Shown: one piece after another, positions 1,966 to 20,792 of the stretch
Layout: each line of letters begins with the position of its first letter
Position numbering within the stretch: the first letter of the stretch is position 1
NCBI GenBank assembly: GCA_020848615.1
Contig: JADLHW010000019.1
Span: 1-59,162 of the forward strand
Reading direction: 5' to 3'
Length of the DNA: 59,162 nucleotides
From: Thermoleophilia bacterium
GTDB lineage: Bacteria; Actinomycetota; Thermoleophilia; Miltoncostaeales; Miltoncostaeaceae
Notes under the pieces: model-generated
What the model saw: only the letters and a program-made list of their open reading frames with translations
Databases searched by the model: none
Told to the model about the DNA's origin: nothing
Position numbers and translations under genes: made by a program

Positions 1966-3477
1966 TCAGTCCGTCGCCCGCCGCTTCACGATGCGCACGC
2001 AGGCGACGTCGCCGTGCGAGGCCGCCTTGCGCGCCGACGCCCGAGCGCTGTTGCACACCACGCCGCGCCGCAGCCGGCGCAGGGCCTCGTCCCGCTCCTT
2101 GGCGACGGCGATCCTCCGGGTCCGCGCCACGGCGGCCGGGGTGGGCGCCGGGCGGCCGGTCACACGGGTGGTGAGCGTGACCACGCGCTCCTGCCCCGGC
2201 GCGAGGGCGCCGATCGCGGTGCCGGCGCTCCTCGACGCCTCGGTGGTCACGAGCACCAGCTGGCGGGGCAGCACGTCGGCGAGCCGCACGCCGTACAGCT
2301 CCGCGGTGCCCGTGTTCCGCACCGAGATGCGCCACGTGATGAGGTCGCCCACGGCGGCCCGGGTGCGGTCGGCCGACGTGGCGACCAGCAGCCGCCCCTT
2401 GGAGCGGTCGTCCTTCACCACCGGCGCCCTCGGGTTGTCCGCCGGGACGACCGGAACGGGATCGGTGGCCGTGGCGCCGGGACCGGTGACCTCCACCTTC
2501 GGCGGCTGCGGGTCGGTCTTGGCCTTCTCCGGCGTGGGCGGCGGGCACACCTTCACGCTCGCCGTCGCGGTCCTCACCCACTCGGACGCCGTGACGTCCG
2601 GTGCCTGCAGCGCGGCGGGAGCCGCCGCGGGCTCCACCGGCACGACCGCGGGCGTGATCTTGGCGACGTTGGCCCAGGTGCGGCAGGCCTTCTTCATGCG
2701 CCAGAAGCTCAGGTACCGGCGGTACCGGAAGGTCCTGCCCTCCTGCAGCGCGTCGGCCAGCGGGCGCGTCTGGTCGCCGTCGAGGGTGTCGGTGACCTTC
2801 ACCGCCGGGTCGACATCGACGTGCGGGGCGTTCGCGAGGTCCACGGGCACGGTCGTGGAGGCCGAGCCGGGCAGCGGGGACGGCGCGGCGATGCCGAGCG
2901 CAGTCGTGTCGGGCGCCGCGGCGGCGGTCGCCCCCGGCGCCTGCGGCGCGAACTTCACGGTCACCGTGTCGTAGATGACCTCCTTCGGCAGCGCCTCGAG
3001 CGTGCACGTCCAGGTCCACTCCGCCGTGGCGCCGCCGGCGATCACCGGCGTCTCGGGCAGCACCTCGCCCGCCGCCGCCGGCGACTCCTGGGCGTGCGTC
3101 CGGACCACCTGGCACTCGCCGCCCGGCAGGGCGTCGGACACGCTGTAGGTGAACGGGGTCGTGGCGTTGGGGTTCGTGATCACGATCGACCCGGTGGCCG
3201 TGACGTCCGTGGCCTTCGACCGCTTCGCGACCTTCACCGTGTAGTCCACGGCCACGGACTGGTCCTTCTTGTCCCAGCCCGCCCGCGGGGCCGCCCACCT
3301 GTCCACGCGCCAGGTGTTCACCAGGGTGTACCGCCCGGCGGCGGGCTTCGCCTCGACGGTGAGGGGCTGCAGATCGCCCGGTGCGCCGGCCGCGGTACCC
3401 GCCAGGGCCGCGGGCACGGCGAGCGCCGCCGCGCCGAGCGCGAGCCGGATGCGGGAACTGCGTGGGCGTGCTGGCAC
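1966..3477 (-). CDS. Secreted DUF11-type repeat protein, paralog 1
   Basis: 503 residues from a GTG start with GGAGG 10 nt upstream. The N-terminus has basic residues, then a hydrophobic signal peptide (ALGAAALAVPAALAGTAAGA). A core block contains GWDKKDQSVAVDY, TDTLDGDQTR and YRRYLSFWR-KK-CRTW. A C-terminal DUF11-like beta-sandwich (GDLITWRISVRNTGTAELYG ... RLADVLP) precedes an Arg-rich tail with VCN-ARA. All these blocks, and six cysteines, recur in the neighbouring paralog (3740-5377), so three disulfides in an exported protein are plausible. DUF11 domains are usually cell-surface or secreted; no enzyme motif is visible. An in-frame ATG at 3525 was rejected because the matching ATG of the paralog is out of frame. 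Function unknown. Confidence 0.8.
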   Translation of the reverse strand: MPARPRSSRIRLALGAAALAVPAALAGTAAGAPGDLQPLTVEAKPAAGRYTLVNTWRVDRWAAPRAGWDKKDQSVAVDYTVKVAKRSKATDVTATGSIVITNPNATTPFTYSVSDALPGGECQVVRTHAQESPAAAGEVLPETPVIAGGATAEWTWTCTLEALPKEVIYDTVTVKFAPQAPGATAAAAPDTTALGIAAPSPLPGSASTTVPVDLANAPHVDVDPAVKVTDTLDGDQTRPLADALQEGRTFRYRRYLSFWRMKKACRTWANVAKITPAVVPVEPAAAPAALQAPDVTASEWVRTATASVKVCPPPTPEKAKTDPQPPKVEVTGPGATATDPVPVVPADNPRAPVVKDDRSKGRLLVATSADRTRAAVGDLITWRISVRNTGTAELYGVRLADVLPRQLVLVTTEASRSAGTAIGALAPGQERVVTLTTRVTGRPAPTPAAVARTRRIAVAKERDEALRRLRRGVVCNSARASARKAASHGDVACVRIVKRRATD

Positions 3478-3596
3478 TGGGGTGATGCCTCCGCTGGTGC
3501 GGCGTCCGTACCGGTGGAATGACATCGGGGGTGGGTCGGGACCTCGCGGCCCCGTGCCGGAATGAGATCGCAGGACCCGCGGGGACGAACCCTGCG
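3478..3596 (-). promoter_or_regulatory. Conserved 5' leader of DUF11 paralog 1 (candidate structured RNA)
   Basis: Shared with the leader of paralog 2. Common pieces in minus-strand order: CGCAGGGTTCG (3596-3586), CCCCCGATGTCAT, an invariant 14-mer CGGTACGGACGCCG (3513-3500), then GGAGGCATC containing the ribosome-binding site. GATGTC (3526-3521) can pair with GGCATC (3489-3484) around a 31-nt loop holding CGGT-ACGGAC-GCCG, itself able to form a 4-bp stem. Pairing would partly mask the ribosome-binding site. I do not recognise it as a known riboswitch class. Confidence 0.5.
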
Positions 3597-3682
3597 GATG
3601 GGGAGTCCGGGGGCTCCCCCGGGGTCCAGGCCCGGGATCCGCGCCCGGCGTCGCGGGCGCGGATCCCGGCCTCCTGAAACGG

Positions 3683-3712
3683 CGGAGGGGGCGCCGTGCG
3701 GCGCCCCCTCCG
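3683..3712 (-). terminator. Strong hairpin after DUF11 paralog 2
   Basis: A perfect 13-bp stem CGGAGGGGGCGCC / GGCGCCCCCTCCG with a GTGC loop lies 28 nt past the stop of the gene ending at 3740. There is no clear U tract, which is usual in very GC-rich genomes. It separates paralog 2 from the leader of paralog 1. Confidence 0.7.
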
Positions 3713-3739
3713 GTCCTGCGGTCGAACGCCTCACCCGCC

Positions 3740-5377
3740 TCAGGTGGTGGTGGGCGGCGCCTCCTTCCTCACGATCCTGATGCACGCGATGTCGCTGTCC
3801 GACGGGCCCTTCTTCGTCGTGGCACGCGCGACGTTGCACACCAGTCCGCGGCGGAGGCGTCGCACGGCCTCGTCACGGTCCTTCGAGGTCTTCAGCTTCC
3901 GGGCCTGGGCCATCTCCCGGGGCGTCGGGGCGGGCTTGCCCTTGACGATGGTGGTCACCACGATCTGCTCGGACTTGCCCGGGCCCAGCTCCCTGATGGT
4001 CGCCAGGACCTTTCCGCCCTTGTCGTTCGCCTCGCTCGGGGCGGGGACGAGGTGCTTGGGCAGGATGTCGGTGACCCTGATGCCGTACAGCTCGGCCTTG
4101 CCGATGTTCTTCACCCGGATGACCCAGACGACGGTGTCGCCGATGCCGGCGGTCTTCACGCGGGACCACTTCGACACGAGCAGGCGGCCCTTGGACGTGT
4201 TGTCCTTCACCACGGGGCCCTTCGGGTTGTCCGTCGGCTTCACCACGACCGGGTCGGCCTTGGAGTTGCCGGGGCCGGTGACCTCGACCACCGGCGGCTT
4301 CGGGTCCTCACCCTTCACCGGGGGCGGCGGCGGGCAGATCTTCACGGTCGCGGAGTCCGTCTTGCTCCAGTCCTCCGCCGGCCACTCGGGTGCGATCTCC
4401 GGCAGGTCCGGGAGCAGCCGCATCTCGGGCGCCTCGCCCACGTTCGGCAGGAGCACGTCCCGCGGGGCCGGGGCGACCTTCGCGATGTTGTCCCACGTCC
4501 GGCAGATCTTCTTCGAGCGCCAGAAGCTCAGGTACCGGCGGTACGTGAACGTCTTGCTGTCGGTGAGGTGATCGTCGAGCAGGCGCGTCTGGTCGCCGTC
4601 GAGCGTGTCGATGACCTTCACCGCGCCGTTGACCTCGCGGTACCGCGCCGCCGAGGCGACGACGTCCGCGGTGCCCTTCGCGTTCCCGGTCCACTTCGGC
4701 GTCTCACCCTGGTCCAGGGCGGTGGCGTCGATCGCGTCGGCCCTGAGGGGCAGCCACTTGATCCACGCGGTGTTCACGATCTTGCGCTTGGGCAGCCTGT
4801 CGAGCGAGCAGACGTACCGCAGCACCGTCGTGCCATGCGGCGCGACGGTCGCGACGGGGTTCGTGCCGGGGGCCAGGGCCGCATCGGCCGTGGCGGTGGC
4901 GTCCATCACCCGCGGCGCCCGGATCGCGCACGTCCCGCCGGGCAGCTCGTCACCGACCAGCACCCAGTAGCGGCCCTCGTTGGGGTTGGTCACGGTGATC
5001 TCGCCGAAGACCTTGATGTTCACGGCCTTCCACGACTTCGTGACCTTCACGGAGTAGTCGACCGCGACGGACTGGTCCTTCTTGTCCCAGCCGGCCTGCG
5101 GCGACGCCCACTTGTCGATGTCCCAGCTGTTCACGCGCGTGTAGAACAGATAGGCCGACTTCTCGACGGTGAGCGGCTGCTCGATCGGGGGCGGGGGCGG
5201 GGGCGGGGGCGGCGCGCTGGTCGTGGTGGTCACGGTGATGGTCGTGCCGTCGGTCAGCACGGTGGCGGGTTCCACCCCTGCCGCCGCCGTGACGGCGGTG
5301 GCCAGGACGACGCCGCCGCCGACGGCCAGGGCCGCCAGCGCCGCGCGCCCCCGGGGGGTGCGTGGGGTTCCTCTCAC
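3740..5377 (-). CDS. Secreted DUF11-type repeat protein, paralog 2
   Basis: 545 residues from GTG, with GGAGG 9 nt upstream. Basic residues (RGTPRTPRGR) lead into a hydrophobic signal peptide, then a Thr-rich and poly-Pro stretch. Next come the conserved blocks GWDKKDQSVAVDY, IDTLDGDQTR, YRRYLSFWR-KK-CRTW, a DUF11-like domain (GDTVVWVIRVKNIGKAELYG) and the tail LRRGLVCNVARA. It is co-oriented with paralog 1 but has its own leader and terminator, so each copy is probably transcribed on its own. Short stretches are identical to paralog 1 at DNA level (for example around 4519-4546 and 5053-5078), suggesting gene conversion or selection. The pair may be envelope or adhesin-like proteins; no activity can be assigned. 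Confidence 0.8.
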   Translation of the reverse strand: MRGTPRTPRGRAALAALAVGGGVVLATAVTAAAGVEPATVLTDGTTITVTTTTSAPPPPPPPPPIEQPLTVEKSAYLFYTRVNSWDIDKWASPQAGWDKKDQSVAVDYSVKVTKSWKAVNIKVFGEITVTNPNEGRYWVLVGDELPGGTCAIRAPRVMDATATADAALAPGTNPVATVAPHGTTVLRYVCSLDRLPKRKIVNTAWIKWLPLRADAIDATALDQGETPKWTGNAKGTADVVASAARYREVNGAVKVIDTLDGDQTRLLDDHLTDSKTFTYRRYLSFWRSKKICRTWDNIAKVAPAPRDVLLPNVGEAPEMRLLPDLPEIAPEWPAEDWSKTDSATVKICPPPPPVKGEDPKPPVVEVTGPGNSKADPVVVKPTDNPKGPVVKDNTSKGRLLVSKWSRVKTAGIGDTVVWVIRVKNIGKAELYGIRVTDILPKHLVPAPSEANDKGGKVLATIRELGPGKSEQIVVTTIVKGKPAPTPREMAQARKLKTSKDRDEAVRRLRRGLVCNVARATTKKGPSDSDIACIRIVRKEAPPTTT

Positions 5378-5493
5378 TTGAAGATGCCTCCATGGGTAAC
5401 GGCGTCCGTACCGAGGGATGACATCGGGGGTGTGCAGCCCATCCCGACTGCACCGCGATCGAACCGCACGTGACGGATCCCGCGAACCCTGCG
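5378..5493 (-). promoter_or_regulatory. Conserved 5' leader of DUF11 paralog 2 (candidate structured RNA)
   Basis: It carries the same ordered elements as 3478-3596: CGCAGGGTTCG (5493-5483), CCCCCGATGTCAT, CGGTACGGACGCCG (5413-5400) and GGAGGCATC. GATGTC (5425-5420) and GGCATC (5388-5383) are again separated by exactly 31 nt, although the linkers on either side of the 14-mer differ in length (6+8 here, 7+7 in the other copy). An ATG at 5424 opens a 16-codon frame ending in TGA that overlaps the GTG start, but that frame is not shared by the other copy. Confidence 0.5.
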
Positions 5494-11844: not shown

Positions 11845-11858
11845 GGGGACGGACCCCC
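11845..11858. promoter_or_regulatory. Short inverted repeat between the two usp genes
   Basis: GGGG-N6-CCCC (GGGGACGGACCCCC) lies about 15-28 nt upstream of the second usp. It is loosely similar to the GGGAC/GTCCC half-sites of DosR-type operators but lacks the A/T-rich centre. Weak evidence. Confidence 0.2.
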
Positions 11859-18078: not shown

Positions 18079-20792
18079 GGCCGCTGGAGCTGGAGCTGGT
18101 CGCGTTCCGCTCGTACGAGCACGAGGTGGTGGACTGGCGCCCCCATGACCTGGTGGTGATCGCCGGGGACACCGGGGCCGGCAAGACCTCGCTGCTGGAC
18201 GCCATCGCGTTCGTCCTATTCGGTAAGACCCCCGAGCACGGACGCCCCCGCGACCTGCTCACCCTGGGGCACACCCACGGCGAGGTGCGGCTCACGTTCG
18301 CCCTGCGGGACCAGGTGTGGCGCGCCACCCGGCGGTACGGCAAGGACGCGCCGGACCCCGCCCAGCTGCTGGAGCGGCTCGAACGGGACGGCGGGGACGT
18401 CACCGAGACGCACGCCGACCGCGTGGACGAGCGCCTGCGGGAGCTGGTGGGCATGAGCTTCGAGGCGTTCACCAGCGCCGTCCTGCTGGCCCAGGGGCGG
18501 TTCGCCCAGTTCCTGGGCGCCCAGCCGCGCGACCGGGACGGCATCCTGCGGGAGCTGTTCTCGGTGGCGTCGATGGACGGCGCCCGGCAGGCGGCGCAGC
18601 GGCGCCAGAGCACGCTGGAGGGCGAGGCCCAGGGCGTCGCGCAGGCCGCCGCCGGACTGCCCGGCCACGCCCCGGCCGTCCGGGCCGCGGCGGCGCGGGC
18701 GGCGCGGTCGGCGGCGGCCGCGGCCGCGGTCCTCCGGGCGCTGCGCCCGCTGGCGGAACGGGCCGAGGCGCTGCGCGAGGCCGCCGCGCGTGCGGCGGCG
18801 ACGGCGGAGGCCACGCGGCGCGCCGCGGCCACGCTGCCCGCGGCGGCCGACCGGGACGCGCTGCGCACCCGCCTGGGGTCCGCGCGCGCGGCGGTCGCCG
18901 CGGCCGAGGCCGAGCGCGACGCCGCGACGCGCGACCGGGACACGGCGGCGGCGGGACGCGAGATGCTCCGGATGCGCCACGGCGGAGCGGCCGCCGACCT
19001 GGCCGCCCTGGGCGAGGTCGCCGCCCGGATCCGGGAGATCGAGGCCGAGCTGCCGGAACGCCGGCGTGCCGCCGGGGCCGCCGGCGCGGAGATCGCGGGC
19101 CGACGCGAGGGACTGGAGCGCCTGGTCGCGGAGGGCACCGAGACCGCCGCCGGGCTCGCGACCGCCGCCGCGGAGCTCGAGGGCCTGCGCGGCGCGAGGT
19201 CCGCGGCGTCCGCCGCGGAGGCGGCGCGGGACGCCGTCGAGGCGGCCGACGCCGCTCGCGACACGGCGATCGCCGCCCACGACGCCGCGGCGGCCCAGCG
19301 ACGGGAGGCGCAGGCCGCCCTGGAGGCCGCGATGCGCCGCGACGCGGCACTGGCCGTGCGCGCCGGGCTGGCACCCGGCGACCCGTGCCCGGTGTGCGGC
19401 GGCGCGGTGGGCGACCACCCGCCGGAGGAGGCGGGCGACCTCCTCGCCCTCCGCGCGGCCGCCGACGCCGCCGCCTCGCGGGAGCGGGGCACCGGCGGCG
19501 CCCGTGCCGCGGCGGTGGCCGACGCCGACCGGGCCCGTGCCGCCCTGCACGACGCCGATGCCGCGCTGGCACGGGCCGGCGCCGTGCCGGACGACGCCGC
19601 GCTGAGCGCCGCACAGGAGCGGGTGACGGCCCTGCAGGCCCACCTCGACGAGCAGCGGGCCCTGCACCAGGCGGAGGCCACGGCCATCGCGGGACGGGAG
19701 GGCGCGCTGGGCGAGGAGCTGCGCCGCATCGACGGCGACGGGGCCCGCCTGGAGGACGACCGTCGCCGCCTCGGGGCGTGGGGGGCCGAGGCCGACGCCG
19801 GTGCCGCGCTCTCCGCCGCGGTCTCGGAGCTGCGGGAGGCCGAGGGCGACGCGGACGCCGCCGCGGGGCGCGCCGCAACGGCCGATCGGCGCGCCGCCGA
19901 GGCCCTTCAGGCGGTGCACGCGGTGGAGGCGGGCGAGGTCGGCGCGCTGCGCTCCGCGACGGCCCGCGTCGCCGCCGCGACGGGGCTGCCGGCGCCCGCA
20001 GACGACCTGGACGCGGAGGGCCTGCTGGACGCGTGCGGCGCCCTCGCCGCGGCGGCCGACCGGGCCGCGGCGGACCTCGACGATGCCACGGTCGCCGCCG
20101 TCGCGGCCACCGGGGAGACAGAGGACGAGCTGGTCGCGCGCGGCGGGGTCCTGGGTGTCACCGACGCGGCGTCGCTGCCCGCCGCGCTGCGCGCCTCTGA
20201 GCGCGCCCGCGGCGAGGCCCGCCAGCACCTGGCCGCCGTGGAGGCGGCGGCGGGCGAGGCGTCCCGGCTGCGCGCCATCGAGGCGTCCGCGCGCGCCGAG
20301 GCGGGGCTGTTCGCCACCGTCGCCAGGGACCTGCAGGCCAACGGCTTCCCGCGCTACCTGCTGGGGCGCTACCGGGAGCGGCTGGCCGCCGGGGCATCCG
20401 CCCGCTTGCAGGAGCTGTCGGCGGGCGCGTACCGCTTCTCCGGCAAGGAGCCCGACCCCCTGGCGGTGCTCGACCTGCGCCGCGGGGAACGCGCCCGATC
20501 GGCGTCCACGCTCAGCGGCGGCGAGCGCTTCCTGGCGAGCCTGGCGTTGGCCCTGGGCCTGTCGGACATCGCCGCCGAATCCGGCGGCCGACTGGATTGC
20601 CTGTTCCTGGACGAGGGCTTCTCCACCCTCGACGCGGAGTCCCTGGAGCAGGCCCTCGCCGGCGTGGAGCGCCTCGCCGGGGAGGGGCGGCTCATCGCCG
20701 TCATCACCCACCTGCCCGGCGTCGCGGAACGCCTGGGGTCGGTGATCCGCGTCGCCAAGGACGCGTCCGGGGCGAGCCGCGTCGTGGACTAG
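18075..20792 (+). CDS. sbcC: Exonuclease subunit SbcC (Rad50 family ATPase)
   Basis: 905 residues, shorter than E. coli SbcC (about 1050). N-terminal ABC half with Walker A AGDTGAGKTSLLDAI near residue 35 and Q-loop region VLLAQGRFAQFL; long Ala/Arg/Glu-rich coiled coil; zinc hook Cys438-Pro-Val-Cys441; second coiled coil; C-terminal half with ABC signature LSGGERFLASLAL and Walker B CLFLDEGFSTLD. All functional elements of an SMC-like Rad50 are present. Unusually high Ala content of the coil reflects base composition. Last gene of the nurA-herA-sbcD-sbcC operon, coupled to sbcD by ATGA. Confidence 0.95.
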   Translation: MRPLELELVAFRSYEHEVVDWRPHDLVVIAGDTGAGKTSLLDAIAFVLFGKTPEHGRPRDLLTLGHTHGEVRLTFALRDQVWRATRRYGKDAPDPAQLLERLERDGGDVTETHADRVDERLRELVGMSFEAFTSAVLLAQGRFAQFLGAQPRDRDGILRELFSVASMDGARQAAQRRQSTLEGEAQGVAQAAAGLPGHAPAVRAAAARAARSAAAAAAVLRALRPLAERAEALREAAARAAATAEATRRAAATLPAAADRDALRTRLGSARAAVAAAEAERDAATRDRDTAAAGREMLRMRHGGAAADLAALGEVAARIREIEAELPERRRAAGAAGAEIAGRREGLERLVAEGTETAAGLATAAAELEGLRGARSAASAAEAARDAVEAADAARDTAIAAHDAAAAQRREAQAALEAAMRRDAALAVRAGLAPGDPCPVCGGAVGDHPPEEAGDLLALRAAADAAASRERGTGGARAAAVADADRARAALHDADAALARAGAVPDDAALSAAQERVTALQAHLDEQRALHQAEATAIAGREGALGEELRRIDGDGARLEDDRRRLGAWGAEADAGAALSAAVSELREAEGDADAAAGRAATADRRAAEALQAVHAVEAGEVGALRSATARVAAATGLPAPADDLDAEGLLDACGALAAAADRAAADLDDATVAAVAATGETEDELVARGGVLGVTDAASLPAALRASERARGEARQHLAAVEAAAGEASRLRAIEASARAEAGLFATVARDLQANGFPRYLLGRYRERLAAGASARLQELSAGAYRFSGKEPDPLAVLDLRRGERARSASTLSGGERFLASLALALGLSDIAAESGGRLDCLFLDEGFSTLDAESLEQALAGVERLAGEGRLIAVITHLPGVAERLGSVIRVAKDASGASRVVD

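Follow-up and report, generated by a model that had tools for sequence, protein, structure and literature searches.

The two genes for secreted DUF11 proteins that lie in tandem in the genome of a Thermoleophilia bacterium are preceded by the same set of sequence elements, which raises the question of whether these elements are retained for a function and, if so, at which level of expression they act. The window, by which we mean the whole stretch of DNA that was analyzed, is 59,162 nt long (contig JADLHW010000019.1). Gene 1 occupies positions 1966..3477 and gene 2 positions 3740..5377, both on the minus strand. Translation most credibly begins with GTG in both, at 3477 and 5377; the Shine-Dalgarno (SD) sequence GGAGG lies 9–10 nt on the 5′ side of these starts (10 nt in gene 1), and the encoded proteins comprise 503 and 545 amino acids. 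Both match PF01345, with E values of 1.5e-12 for gene 1, scored on a longer frame with an ATG start, and 7.8e-9 for gene 2. For the gene 2 protein, AlphaFold predicts mostly β strands, at low confidence (pLDDT 56.6). GC-rich long inverted repeats, terminator-like except that a T-run is missing, are found between the genes at 3634–3668 and 3684–3711; they would fit a separate promoter for gene 1.

The two proteins are tandem paralogs with 46% identity over 482 aa. A wider homolog search returned full-length close relatives in a sister species only, the MAG Actinobacteria bacterium Ga0077560 (contig LNFL01000167.1; hereafter G001), which carries one copy of the gene with its leader. A divergent protease gene adjoins the DUF11 gene in both species. 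The gene 2 protein is 61% identical to the G001 ortholog and 46–50% identical to that of gene 1; the duplication is therefore older than the species split, and it follows that the gene 1 leader has been kept since before that split. G001 also encodes a protein with TolB-like repeats fused to a C-terminal DUF11 region (37% identity), and neither this gene nor the more distant DUF11 proteins in a further genome (G011) have the leader islands.

As the earlier note had described, both leaders contain four islands in the same order, CGCAGGGTTCG, CACCCCCGATGTCAT, CGGTACGGACGCCG and GGAGGCATC. All of them are read on the minus strand. The first of these lies at 3586..3596 before gene 1 and at 5483..5493 before gene 2 (the G001 ortholog has CGCAGGGCTCG), and may represent a −35/promoter element or a factor-binding block. 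In the three-copy alignment it is followed by a weaker conserved block, TGCGATCTCAT at 3562..3572, 13 nt past island 1 of gene 1, and TGCGGTTCGAT at 5458..5468, 14 nt past island 1 of gene 2, which might act as the −10 element. From island 1 to CCCCCGATG the gap measures 54 nt in gene 1 and 52 nt in gene 2 (65 and 63 nt from start to start), in place of the 68 and 70 nt given previously for the first and second elements. The second island, CACCCCCGATGTCAT, is located at 3519–3533 and 5418–5432. It is followed by the invariant 14-mer CGGTACGGACGCCG at 3500..3513 and 5400..5413, in which ACGGACG, an instance of ANGGANG, lies between CGGU and GCCG. The last island, GGAGGCATC, spans 3484..3492 and 5383..5391 and contains both the SD and the predicted 3′ arm of a closing helix. 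Allowing at most one mismatch, the 14-mer has just two sites in the window, both in the leaders, where 0.23 would be expected; its exact form occurs twice in the 3.64-Mb genome, in these same two places. The frame that opens at the common ATG runs in frame into gene 1, forms a 16-codon ORF ending at the start of gene 2, and continues out of frame in the G001 ortholog. The proposal that conservation here is not for protein is thereby upheld, and a conserved upstream peptide is ruled out, since the frame is unlike in all three copies.

Comparison of the three copies separates the islands from their surroundings. Identity at fourfold-degenerate positions is 51–53% among the two genes and their sister-species ortholog (51% for gene 1 against gene 2). 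In the islands, agreement among the three copies is 10–11 of 12, 14–15 of 16, 14 of 14 (for the 14-mer, as read from the three-copy alignment) and 9 of 9, and the stretch between islands 1 and 2 agrees at 37–54%. The sister-species ortholog retains all islands in the same order and at near-equal spacing. Because the islands are near-identical against saturated synonymous sites and are kept in a second species, the leader must be under strong selection; we regard it as practically certain that the islands are the selected element. This bears out the earlier suggestion of a conserved cis element, as opposed to a simple duplication.

The question is then whether the islands act in DNA or in RNA. 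In predicted folds, all three copies form a common hairpin that pairs GATGTC with GGCATC, UCC with the GGA of the SD, GGU with ACC, and CGG with CCG, and ends in an ACG triloop. It covers 3484..3526 in gene 1 (MFE −16.5 kcal/mol, z −2.4; pairs of the closing helix P1 at P 0.84–0.99) and 5383..5425 in gene 2 (MFE −17.1 kcal/mol, z −2.3), both on the minus strand. Over the three copies the MFE ranges from −14 to −17 kcal/mol for 42–43 nt, and z is only −1.0 for the third. The SD is paired with a probability of 0.89–1.0 in each copy, so the folds support the claim of the earlier note that the pairing touches the ribosome-binding site, which it is predicted to close. That GATGTC and GGCATC pair across exactly 31 nt is correct for the two leaders and is not a rule, as the G001 copy has 30 nt; the linkers within the loop change length as claimed, 7+7 against 6+8.

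Closure of the SD is unexceptional in this GC-rich genome, where SD inaccessibility places the two genes 19th and 32nd of 180 roughly predicted genes in 460 kb; therefore, a closed SD does not by itself prove regulation. One may then argue that the islands are DNA sites, that is, a multi-part promoter and a transcription-factor operator that were duplicated with the gene, and that the hairpin is a by-product of GC-rich DNA. The commonness of SD closure is consistent with this reading, as are the position of island 1, which is promoter-like and far from the hairpin, and the invariance of the 14-mer and GATGTC, which show no compensatory change. Against it, three of the islands lie within ∼57 nt of the start codon, and one is the SD itself. 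Moreover, the conserved blocks fall in predicted stems, CACCCCC and the triloop excepted, and the linkers vary, a pattern of mostly conserved arms and variable linkers that speaks for the RNA reading. On this evidence the DNA-site explanation seems rather unlikely, and the leader probably exerts translational control.

If the leader acts as RNA, it could belong to a wider class, as the earlier note had raised in proposing a regulatory RNA with compensatory changes and a covariance-model search for it. A covariance model built from the three leaders was searched against 42 family genomes and 399 sampled class genomes. It matches the window's own genome twice and G001 once, and no further copy was found in these genomes, before any other gene or in any other lineage; the weak matches in other family genomes (E 0.09–0.85) are at chance level and were left out. 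Among the three sequences no pair has changed on both sides, and all pairs but one are invariant, although with so few sequences a structure remains compatible with this result. The leader has no relevant match in Rfam even at E 5, and a literature search found no described DUF11-associated RNA. By the criterion that the earlier note itself had set, the proposed RNA class is thus not borne out. On present evidence there is no new riboswitch or RNA class, and the leader is a genus-level feature of one orthologous and paralogous gene set.

The same results bear on the idea that the SD hairpin itself senses a metabolite, an ion or temperature, without CsrA. As in RNA thermometers and other SD-closing leaders, the predicted partner of the SD is an arm on its 5′ side, and the closed hairpin has a U-G wobble, internal loops and invariant unpaired triloop bases that might suit a sensor. 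Unlike those leaders, however, this one has no sequence or Rfam family match, and in the genomes searched it is confined to related genes of a single genus, whereas known ligand-sensing RNA classes are broadly spread; nor do the DUF11 proteins hint at a ligand. We consider such a sensor distinctly improbable. Finally, recent duplication or gene conversion without function, the null of the earlier note and one to which the tandem paralogy of the genes lends itself, is rejected as extremely improbable: proteins only 46% identical, coding regions saturated at fourfold sites (51%) and diverged intervening sequence accompany nearly identical islands, linkers interrupt the islands as they would not in a conversion tract, the islands have survived in the sister species across a split younger than the duplication, and the 61% protein identity of its match excludes same-strain contamination.

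Returning to translational control, we asked what might read the leader. The invariant ACGGACG (3503–3509 and 5403–5409), which the earlier note does not mention, fits in all three copies the ANGGANG core of CsrA/RsmE sites (PMC7652899). A further GGA is part of the SD, where the second site of CsrA-regulated leaders is commonly located; it reads AUGGAGG in gene 2 and G001 and GCGGAGG, which lacks the A of the site, in gene 1. The two GGAs start 15–16 nt apart, and paired CsrA sites are spaced by 10–63 nt (PMC7652899, PMC4894983, PMC7492729). The 14-mer is predicted to be able to refold as a CGGU-ACGGAC-GCCG hexaloop hairpin. The window's minus strand has just two ANGGAN hairpins of at least 4 bp, exactly those of the two DUF11 leaders, and 52 others occur in 920 kb of strand-specific sequence (0.057 per kb), drawn, like all background rates here, from 460 kb of the same genome. 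The chance per 60-nt leader is ∼0.3% for such a hairpin, a figure that overstates its weight because the motif was spotted after the fact, and 0.2% for ANGGANG. Another candidate CsrA target in the window, the GGGG-ACGGAC-CCCC element in the leader of a universal-stress-protein gene (11845–11858), was rejected because the sister species keeps the motif letters and has lost the stem.

The genome also encodes CsrA (PF02599, E 1.3e-23), with L4 and R44 present, and FliW (E 7.1e-33), whose gene lies 3 kb before csrA (20066–20221 on its contig, G000:C165); a flagellin gene follows csrA directly, and csrA is present in the sister species as well. Flagellin leaders across the family (loci L026/L027 on the csrA contig, L033, L041–L046, L049 and L052) contain canonical ANGGAN hexaloop hairpins, one of which encloses the SD, with compensatory stem changes between genera. 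Examples are CCGC-ACGGAU-GCGG and, around the SD, GAUUC-AAGGAG-GAAUC; the SD-enclosing form reads GATTC-A[AC]GGAG-GAATC, and CCATC-AAGGAG-GATGG in L052. The hexaloop sites have P of at least 0.95 in both species of the genus. A CsrA-FliW-flagellin circuit in this actinobacterial family is therefore a clear prediction. The SD of a flgL-like gene (L027:4752) lies within a GAGCC-AGGGAG-GGCTC hairpin, probably a further CsrA site. The flagellin leaders carry GCCGATA-type −10 boxes; a SigD-type promoter for the DUF11 genes was considered and discarded, the DUF11 leaders having no matching −35.

The DUF11 leaders resemble these flagellin leaders, and the CsrA-repressed ones of Campylobacter jejuni flaA and Bacillus subtilis hag, in having GGA motifs both upstream and on the SD of a gene for an exported protein, an ANGGANG motif with complementary flanks, and a genome with CsrA and FliW. 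They differ in their target, a DUF11 protein rather than a flagellar part, and in their fold. GGA hexaloops are the stable fold in flagellin leaders, whereas the stable fold of the DUF11 leaders buries the GGA, which thus does not lie in the loop of a stable predicted hairpin as would be expected of a CsrA-regulated leader: the SD-closing fold is favored over the hexaloop hairpin by 4.5–5.3 kcal/mol, and the hexaloop hairpin has P ∼0, whereas the CGG/CCG stem of the SD-closing fold reaches 0.94 or more. The invariant ACC, too, is explained by the SD-closing fold and not by the CsrA hairpin. A further likeness is to Escherichia coli ymdA, where a CsrA site lies inside the hairpin that closes the SD, and binding opens the SD and activates expression (PMC7492729). 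In both leaders the hairpin that sequesters the SD includes a CsrA-type site as well, a candidate one in the case of DUF11; ymdA, however, requires a second site just upstream, and no upstream GGA is conserved in all three DUF11 copies. We therefore stop short of calling this leader a CsrA target and name CsrA as the likeliest candidate partner, at less than even odds.

Taken together, we lean modestly toward a genus-specific translational-control leader with CsrA as its likeliest partner. Each DUF11 gene would have its own conserved control region, in which the distal island CGCAGGG[TC]TCG, with TGCG.T..AT 13–14 nt further on, is probably a promoter or activator site. Transcription from a promoter there would give a leader of ∼85–90 nt, placing the three proximal islands in the 5′ untranslated region, with the SD in the 3′ arm of the hairpin. 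The mRNA would then be made with its ribosome site closed, and translation would depend on what opens the hairpin or locks it. CsrA, if it binds, could open the SD helix in the manner of E. coli ymdA; alternatively, it could lock the SD in the manner of flagellin mRNA, for which the C. jejuni flaA leader is the precedent (PMC4894983). In either case, CsrA may tie the secreted DUF11 proteins to the CsrA-FliW-flagellin circuit of the genome. A bolder form of this idea, a lineage-specific translational switch outside Gammaproteobacteria in which the actinobacterial CsrA-FliW flagellar circuit governs a secreted protein unrelated to the flagellum and does so by refolding the SD-closing hairpin through an internal GGA, is doubtful.

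To our knowledge, CsrA has been little studied in Actinobacteria. Should it read this leader, it would have a target beyond the flagellum in that phylum, and secreted DUF11 proteins of unknown role would be linked to the motility decision. Should it not, the locus remains a fine illustration of leader islands that strong selection has preserved within a single genus, and the family-wide CsrA hairpins of the flagellin leaders stand as an independent, clear prediction.
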